32,757 bases of DNA from Planctomycetia bacterium. GTDB lineage: Bacteria > Planctomycetota > Phycisphaerae > Phycisphaerales > SM1A02. The notes under the pieces are model-generated. The model did no database searches. It was not told where the DNA came from and saw only the letters and a list, made by a program, of their open reading frames with translations. The stretch is from the NCBI GenBank assembly GCA_005799495.1, contig SYGP01000013.1, forward strand, positions 1 through 32,757. The letters run 5' to 3'. Shown here piece by piece: positions 30,352-31,818 of the stretch (positions are counted from its first letter, which is position 1; every line of letters begins with the position of its first letter). Made by a program: the position numbers and the translations under genes.

Positions 30352-31818
30352 ATGCCACACTTTCGAAAGGTGATTATCGCCTCGCTCACCATGCCCGCGC
30401 TCATTGCCTGCGCGAGCATGGCTCGGACGGACGAGACATCGAAGAAACCAACCGATGCTCAAGGCAACGGCACACCCACCGCGCCAGCCGCGACCGCAGC
30501 GGCTCCCGCTGCCCCCGCTCCAGACTCGACGGAAGCGGAGATCAAGCGCCTTCGTCAGCAGGCGGAGCTCCGGGAGCAGGAGTTGAACGCGCAACTCGCG
30601 ACTCTGCGTGCGGAGAAGACGAAGCTGGAAACCGAATTGGCCCTCACGACCGCAAGGCAGAACTCGCAAGCGGAGCCCGACAAGACGAAGCTCGATTCCC
30701 TGCAGCGAGCTGCCGCGCTGCGCGACGCGACACTGCGCAGTGAAATGGCCAGCAATGCGGCGGAGTTGGAGAAGATGAAGCAGGCACAGGCGCTCGCGCA
30801 GACGAAGGTCGAAAGTGAACTCGCCGCGAACAAGGCGGAAATGGACCGCATCCGCTCTGCGCAGGATCTGATGGACATCAAGCACCGCGCGAAGTTGGCA
30901 GACACCCGCCGAGAGCAAGAGACGATTGCGGCGGACAACTTGCTCGCAGCAGAGAAGCGCAAGGCCGATCAGTCGAAGATGGCAGACGAGCAGGTCCGCG
31001 CAGAGATTCAAGCGCGAACATCCGCTGCGCTCCTGCAGGAAAGAGATGGCACCGACAAGCTCCGAGACCTGGTCACATCACCGATCACCTACACCGCGAC
31101 CCCCTTTGAAAACGGCGTGCTGACGGTGAGTGACCGCAAGATTGCGCTCGACGGGCCGATCATTACCGGCACCGCGGACTATGTCTGCGACCGCATCGAC
31201 TACTTCAACAATCAGGATCGCAAGGCGCCGATCTTCATCGTCATCAACAATTCGCCTGGCGGCAGCGTGATGCAGGGCTACCGCATCCTCAAGGCCATCG
31301 AGACGAGTGATGCCCCCGTGCATGTCGTGGTGAAGAGCTTTGCCGCCAGCATGGCTGCGACCATCGCGACACTCGCACCACACAGTTACGCCTACCCCAA
31401 CGCGATCATCCTGCATCACCAGATGTCGGGCGGCGCATCGGGCAACATGACTGACATCGAGCAGGAAGTGAAGACGATGAAGGAGTGGGAGCGACGGCTC
31501 GCCGAGCCGATTGCACGCAAGATGGGCATCTCGCTCGACGAGTTCAAGGCGCGCATGTACTCCGCCAAGAAGAACGGTGACTGGGATGAGTTTGCAGACA
31601 AGGCCGTTCAACTGAAGTGGGTCGATCACCTCGTGAACGAAGTCCGCGAGGAAGGCATCCGCAAGAAGCCTTCGGGTGGGCGCCCCGAGCAAATGTGGTT
31701 CTTCATGATGGACCGCGATGAGCAGGGCAAGCCGTTCATGCGCCTGCCCCCGCTCGAGCCGTACGACTGCTACTTCATGGTCAATCCTCGCGGCTTCTAC
31801 CGAGTGGACGGACGCTGA
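30352..31818 (+). CDS. Lipid-anchored ClpP-like serine protease with long coiled-coil N-terminus
   Basis: A 488-residue protein. The signal ends in the lipobox LIAC, so Cys20 is likely lipidated and the protein is in the envelope. After an Ala/Pro/Thr linker (30-58) a charged helical stretch (about 60-235) predicts a coiled coil. Residues ~243-430 form a ClpP/crotonase-type domain: [19 protein letters not shown] (substrate-strand and Gly-rich loop), AASMAATI with nucleophile Ser333, [10 protein letters not shown] with catalytic His356, and [17 protein letters not shown] where Asp410 aligns with the ClpP catalytic Asp. The triad is therefore complete. A ~50-residue C-terminal extension is Trp/Phe/Tyr-rich. 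Classic ClpP is cytosolic and about 200 residues. The ATG at 30352 is 5 bp after AAGGAG; an ATG directly before it is too close. katG follows after 23 bp. Confidence 0.87.

Follow-up and report, generated by a model that had tools for sequence, protein, structure and literature searches.

A stalked ClpP-type protein with a signal-like start in a planctomycete: a candidate ATP-independent peptidase of the cell envelope

The gene and its neighbourhood

The window, which is the whole stretch of 32,757 nucleotides analysed here, is an entire contig (C6) of a planctomycete genome of 2.36 Mb that is 97.8% complete. It encodes a protein of 488 residues in which a putative export signal, a linker, a stalk, a ClpP-type catalytic domain and a C-terminal extension follow one another (Table 1). 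A first, sequence-only reading had proposed this frame with its ClpP domain, and both prove to be real, the match to Pfam PF00574 being far above chance. The same genome holds three further PF00574 genes, arranged in a row on another contig (C43:36816-38636, L158-L160), so the stalked gene is an addition and not the housekeeping ClpP; its product reaches 52 bits against the housekeeping equivalog TIGR00493 (clpP), where the cut-off is 308.6. Two of the three C43 genes were read and look canonical, one of them having AYSGG around the catalytic Ser instead of AASMG.

Table 1 Features of the stalked gene and of neighbouring genes in the window
Feature	Position	Strand	Basis or remark
Coding sequence, stalked ClpP-type protease, 488 aa	30352..31818	+	Intact frame; ATG 30349 would add one Met
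Shine-Dalgarno AAGGAG	30341..30346	+	5 bases before ATG 30352; 2 before ATG 30349
Export signal, residues 1-19, up to lipobox L17-I-A-C20	30352..30408	+	Rule-based
Cys20, predicted lipidated residue	30409..30411	+	Lipobox LIAC at 17-20
Ala/Pro/Thr-rich linker, residues 20-58, fast evolving	30409..30525	+	Sequence, dN/dS
Stalk, residues 59-246, about 7.5 units of 25 residues	30526..31089	+	Repeat analysis, AlphaFold2
ClpP-type catalytic domain, residues 256-432	31117..31647	+	Pfam, solved-ClpP matches, Foldseek, VIA-align, profile alignment
Ser333, nucleophile position	31348..31350	+	Invariant 40/40
His356	31417..31419	+	Invariant 40/40
Asp410	31579..31581	+	Invariant 40/40; on ClpP catalytic Asp in profile alignment
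C-terminal extension, residues 433-488, aromatic end [14 protein letters not shown]	31648..31815	+	Conserved in family
katG (catalase-peroxidase)	31842-32757		PF00141, 4.1e-30; runs off contig
Beta-lactamase-family serine hydrolase	28976-30358	-	PF00144, 1.6e-25; points away from stalked gene
Multi-haem cytochrome c	27071-27724	-	PF14522; 98% identical in L027

In the window and in its three closest relatives, L005, L006 and L007, katG starts 23 bases past the stop codon of the stalked gene, and all four loci have a beta-lactamase-family gene upstream, on the opposite strand; in the window, the GTG at 30358 that opens the longest frame of the latter overlaps the first codons of the stalked gene, so its true start is probably further in. 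Neither gene was found beside any other family locus (L001-L077, with flanks of only about 1.5 kb at many of them), and a transcript shared with katG is possible in the window's sub-clade only. No neighbouring gene was common to all 22 loci compared, and subsets of close relatives do share neighbours. The multi-haem cytochrome c of the window may form part of an alternative complex III cluster.

The catalytic domain and its departures from ClpP

Residues 260-402 match CLP_protease (PF00574; MEROPS S14) at 85.4 bits against a cut-off of 20.2 (E 5.8e-24), and all seven family proteins scanned exceed this cut-off, the six besides the window protein with 62.7-87.3 bits. The best solved ClpP found by sequence has an E value of 1.2e-15, which becomes 6.8e-23 when a profile of 18 members is compared with the solved ClpPs. 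Ser333, His356 and Asp410, embedded in the motifs AASMA, HHQ and GDW, fall on the ClpP triad positions, and all 40 aligned family proteins share Ser333, His355, His356, Gln357, Gly409, Asp410 and Trp411; the set includes the window protein and one member (L076) whose frame is open only over its last 340 codons. The complete triad of the sequence-only reading is kept in every one of these proteins, and the replacement in most homologues that would have refuted that reading is not seen. The profile alignment sets Asp410 on the second Asp of 'DRDN', while MAFFT instead placed Asp412 there, with a gap; because of the profile alignment on 'DRDN' and the invariance of Asp410 in 40 of 40 rows, against Asp at residue 412 in only 27 of 40, Asp410 fits the catalytic Asp better than Asp412 does.

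The structure of the domain was approached with AlphaFold2. The full-protein model built from family sequences alone was too poor in the catalytic domain for use (pLDDT blocks 33-67 over 251 to 430). A better model (pLDDT 68.7, pTM 0.65) was obtained with an alignment of 36 sequences, 13 from the family and 23 viral ClpPs, the latter of which may pull the model towards ClpP. It matches ClpP in Foldseek with an E value of 1.5e-13; VIA-align, run on Foldseek's ClpP-dominated list only, listed 50 entries, which have Z 22.6-23.3 with 164-179 residues aligned, the best being Z 23.3 with an rmsd of 1.4 over 165 residues from a model whose alignment included canonical ClpPs. The catalytic domain is predicted by this model to have the ClpP fold. 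A disulphide between C279 and C473 was discarded, since the two columns vary apart, with Cys in 29 and 20 of the 40 rows.

Besides fold and triad positions, the family shares with ClpP the SPGG motif and, in outline, the handle region, which reads GNMTD in the family and GQATD-like in ClpP, with Gly364 and Asn365 invariant in 40 of 40 rows. It differs from ClpP in its export signal, in an invariant HHQ, in one residue more before SPGG (INNSPGG against INSPGG), in GDW as against (D/E)RD, in a C-terminal extension and in the loss of the N-terminal axial loop, whose stretch GERSYDI-SRLLK is missing from 13 of 13 family rows and is replaced by the 25-residue-repeat stalk, which enters there. Additionally, the family rows compared have Thr, Ala, Ser or Glu at residue 318, opposite a Tyr/Phe of canonical ClpP (F82 of E. 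coli, part of the ATPase docking pocket). In the profile alignment Gly stands where canonical ClpP has the Arg preceding the catalytic Asp; this Arg position acts as a sensor of oligomerisation, and the ring may therefore be unlike that of ClpP or be absent. The aromatic C-terminal tail, 56 residues long in the window protein, is a family hallmark, and none of the 23 viral ClpPs in the alignment has an equivalent, in agreement with what had been said of it from the sequence.

Several of these departures suit an enzyme that is exported and active and forms no ClpP-like barrel, in which a monomer, a dimer or a single open ring would cut specific envelope proteins that the stalk reaches or recognises. 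The missing axial-loop motif, the extra residue in INNSPGG, the Gly for Arg before the catalytic Asp and the lack of a partner gene common to the 22 loci all lean this way, whereas the handle region, through which ClpP rings are joined, keeps its outline and speaks against it; the reading is possible, though on balance doubtful.

The export signal, the stalk and selection

A signal-like start, defined as a 12-residue stretch with a mean hydropathy of at least 1.62 within the first 41 residues, is present in all 37 family N-termini assessed, whose starts were hand-picked with the signal in view and in one case (L050) fall on GTA, no start codon. Under the same rule, 2 of 77 viral canonical ClpPs pass, as do 44 of 138 ATG-started ORFs of at least 250 residues from the same loci, in which real and chance frames are mixed. 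This rule-based result upholds the export proposed earlier.

Lipidation is another matter. The window protein carries LIAC after its signal, and a strict lipobox ([LV][IVLA]AC) is found in 8 of the 37 rows (window, L005, L006, L007, L011, L042, L068 and L070), with a typical AFA cleavage site after the lipobox in L011; a loose rule adds TTSC (5 rows), ASAC and MAAC and raises the count to 15/37, and Cys occupies the Cys20 column in 12 of 40 family rows. In L036, which is 75% identical to the window protein, the lipobox position reads LLASAS, with Ser for Cys20. The loose signal-peptidase-I pattern (A/S/V-x-A) separates little, since it occurs in 36 of 37 rows, those with a lipobox included. 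All strict-lipobox rows lie in the window's 22-row sub-clade of the tree, at its base and on separate twigs, a distribution that fits either several losses of a lipobox present in the ancestor or repeated gains. What is conserved throughout the family appears to be the export signal and not lipidation; the lipoprotein of the sequence-only reading stays a prediction for the window protein with its LIAC and is not supported as a family trait.

The signal also bears on the suggestion that the protein is a cytoplasmic protease working with ClpX or ClpC, its N-terminal signal having been misread. The ClpP fold speaks for such a role, but the signal-like start in 37 of 37 family proteins as compared with 2 of 77 canonical ones, the substitutions at residue 318, in the presumed docking pocket, and the three other PF00574 genes of the genome speak against it and make it very improbable.

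Behind the linker, AlphaFold2 predicts helix at residues 59-105 and 111-228, with pLDDT blocks of 72-87 from 61 to 220 and of 57 at 101-110; the approximately 188 stalk residues, if helical, would span about 28 nm, as calculated from 0.15 nm per residue. Self-comparison at lags 3-59, with 60 shuffles each, was applied to 34 proteins including close relatives, and the best lag was 25 or 50 in 31 of them. The remaining three, L048, L050 and L051, have a best lag of 9, and in L051 lag 25 lies outside the four best lags. The window protein reaches z = 6.5 at lag 25; averaged across 19 diverse members, z is 4.9 at that lag and 4.2 at lag 50. By this measure the stalk is a 25-residue repeat, a length equal to seven helical turns at 3.57 residues.

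The coiled-coil period was assessed in seven proteins. Within the range 3.4-3.8 each of them has its helical-period peak at 3.56-3.58, and this peak beats all 300 shuffles only in L017 and L019. As many as 52 of 300 shuffles are as high in the window protein, which places its period within the shuffles, and the corresponding counts are 43 in L018, 23 in L011, 15 in L029 and 4 in L008. The strongest peak of the window protein, L018 and L029 lies elsewhere, at 3.10-3.16, that is, 25/8. Of the 170-residue coiled coil proposed from the sequence, the AlphaFold2 prediction retains a long helix of nearly that length, and the coiled-coil period is not distinguished from shuffles in the window protein.

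Differences in stalk length were compared in two ways. In an alignment of 20 rows (A1), eight of nine internal stalk gaps, at two sites, are 25 residues long and one is 16, and both stalk indels that are shared have a length of 25. Pairwise alignments of 18 diverse members, by comparison, have 7 as their commonest gap (98 of 467 gaps of at least 5 residues), with 25 accounting for 30 of 467. The statement that stalk length changes only by 25 was set aside as not clean, given these pairwise gaps and the single gap of 16. The earlier idea that the coil measures distance gains a little from whole 25-residue units being present or absent in A1, and it keeps the 'could' with which it was proposed.

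Selection on the gene was estimated by comparing the window with three close relatives. The ClpP domain has a dN/dS ratio of 0.007-0.042 and the stalk one of 0.040-0.073; for the linker the ratio is 0.135-0.184, with dS values (1.4-1.7) that approach saturation, and for the signal 0.17-0.58. A catalytically dead scaffold is hard to credit against a triad invariant in 40 of 40 proteins and a dN/dS as low as 0.007.

The family and its possible way of working

A tree was built from 53 rows, 38 of the family and 15 canonical, among which 49 differ; two ClpPs of the source genome occur three times each, as their loci overlap. A branch supported at 100/100 has the family on one side, and the two groups are reached from the midpoint root by branches of 3.3 and 3.4 changes per column. 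On this tree, the family resolves as one clade, with long branches between it and the canonical ClpPs included.

With the whole protein as query, 19 of 41 genomes (the source genome and 40 relatives) match at E <=1e-15. The catalytic domain and tail as query match 12 of 392 genomes of a phylum sample (E <=1e-18) and 17 of 397 of a class sample that overlaps with it, each count including the source genome; one class-sample match (G618, E 4.6e-19, L077) is a canonical ClpP by sequence, which leaves 16 genomes. The family is thus sparse in Planctomycetota, with 12 of 392 sampled genomes including its own. A pattern scan for close matches over 84,980 species returned 15 loci, and the named genomes that carry close relatives of the gene are planctomycetes. 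Carriage varies among genomes of the same genus, two of which (G004 and G013, both 95% complete) have no match to the whole-protein query, so gain, loss or transfer of the gene does happen. Separately, L042, from a genome related only at phylum level (G092), has a catalytic domain 78% identical to that of the window, and nine members from other families of the window's order are 52-68% identical there, below L042; its closeness reflects either horizontal transfer or a misbinned contig.

Among mobile elements, plasmids gave 54 records, all below 60% identity, the best ten listed being 27.6-30.7% identical and seven of these ten annotated as Clp protease. Two peptide patterns matched 17 stretches of viral contigs, none of which was confirmed as a family member, and of 17 phage records matched the ten listed are 27.6-35.3% identical, none covering 80% of the query. 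A phage-type head maturation protease with a scaffold coil would share the ClpP fold, as the ClpP-related enzymes of NF045542 and NF045540 do, and the NCBIfam head-maturation models do match, though below their cut-offs (63.8 against 120 and 64.5 against 475 bits). To our knowledge, an export signal is not expected in such a protease, and a signal-like start is present in all members assessed; together with an identity of at most 35.3% in the ten listed phage matches and no family member confirmed in viral contigs, this leaves the phage origin with next to no probability.

Membrane-associated proteases of the ClpP fold were compared as well. NfeD1b / PH1510-type proteases use a Ser-Lys dyad. 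As is proposed for the window protein, they (PF25145) combine a ClpP-like domain with membrane association and have no AAA+ partner; the window protein scores 16 bits against the PF25145 cut-off of 40, and its gene, unlike theirs, adjoins katG and a beta-lactamase-family gene, not a stomatin. NfeD1b proteins are described as having an N-terminal ClpP protease domain, and in Pyrococcus a serine protease is the partner of a stomatin (PMC2636767). Membrane-tied ClpP-fold proteases without an ATPase are already known in other families, NfeD1b being an example (PMC2636767).

The window protein does not have PF01343 among the three Pfam families listed for it at E <=1, and it scores 29.3 bits against the cut-off of 155.45 for NCBIfam SppA_dom. 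SppA is another membrane-tied ClpP-fold protease without an ATPase and acts at the outer face of the inner membrane. The genome of the window has no match to SppA (S49, PF01343), which could suggest that the stalked protein substitutes for it by clearing cut signal peptides in the membrane. Against this, SppA occurs in 13 of 27 genomes with the stalked gene and in 17 of 37 without it (64 hand-picked genomes, with G018, where the gene is cut by the contig end, counted as a carrier); in the window's family (f1) SppA is absent from 34 of the 39 genomes tested, whether or not they have the gene, and G639 and G723 have both. With no association over 64 genomes, there is no sign of the gene standing in for SppA; the replacement is not supported and the idea is quite improbable. 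SppA is present in all 25 tested genomes from other families.

The novelty lies in a clade of its own whose members match the profile of ClpP itself, retain the Ser-His-Asp triad and bear a 25-residue-repeat stalk. At the level of titles and the beginnings of abstracts, no description of an exported ClpP-clade protease was found in the open-access literature. A signal-like start, a repeat stalk, a ClpP domain with an intact triad, the lack of an axial loop and a C-terminal extension can all be read from the sequence. The export signal and the long, repeat-built helical stalk make it probable that the enzyme acts outside the cytoplasm and dispenses with the ATP-driven partner of ClpP, and we know of no AAA+ unfoldase to be expected there. 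Our preferred reading is an exported, ATP-independent ClpP-fold serine peptidase on a helical stalk of 25-residue units, for which we infer activity, location and oligomeric state, and in which we have evenly balanced confidence. The sequence-only reading is, overall, partly supported.

If the preferred reading of an exported peptidase is followed, Sec would export the protein; a lipid on Cys20 would anchor it to a membrane in the window's clade, and in most relatives it would end up free in the periplasm or outside. Stalks from several subunits might bundle at the site of the ClpP axial pore and act as both spacer and entry gate, and the ring would cut peptides or unfolded segments diffusing in, without ATP or an unfoldase. 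More specifically, and only tentatively since we consider it rather unlikely, the family could consist of true ClpP descendants outside the cytoplasm, forming a compartmental protease of the envelope in which the ATP-driven gate has been replaced by a bundled stalk of 25-residue units that determines entry as well as the spacing from membrane or wall.

ClpP is the textbook example of a chambered protease that depends on ATP, and an exported clade with its triad would reveal how an enzyme of this kind manages with neither ATP nor an unfoldase. The ruler idea is directly testable, since close relatives differ by whole 25-residue stretches of stalk in one alignment. The planctomycete envelope is unusual, and planctomycetes would gain an unrecognised envelope protease.
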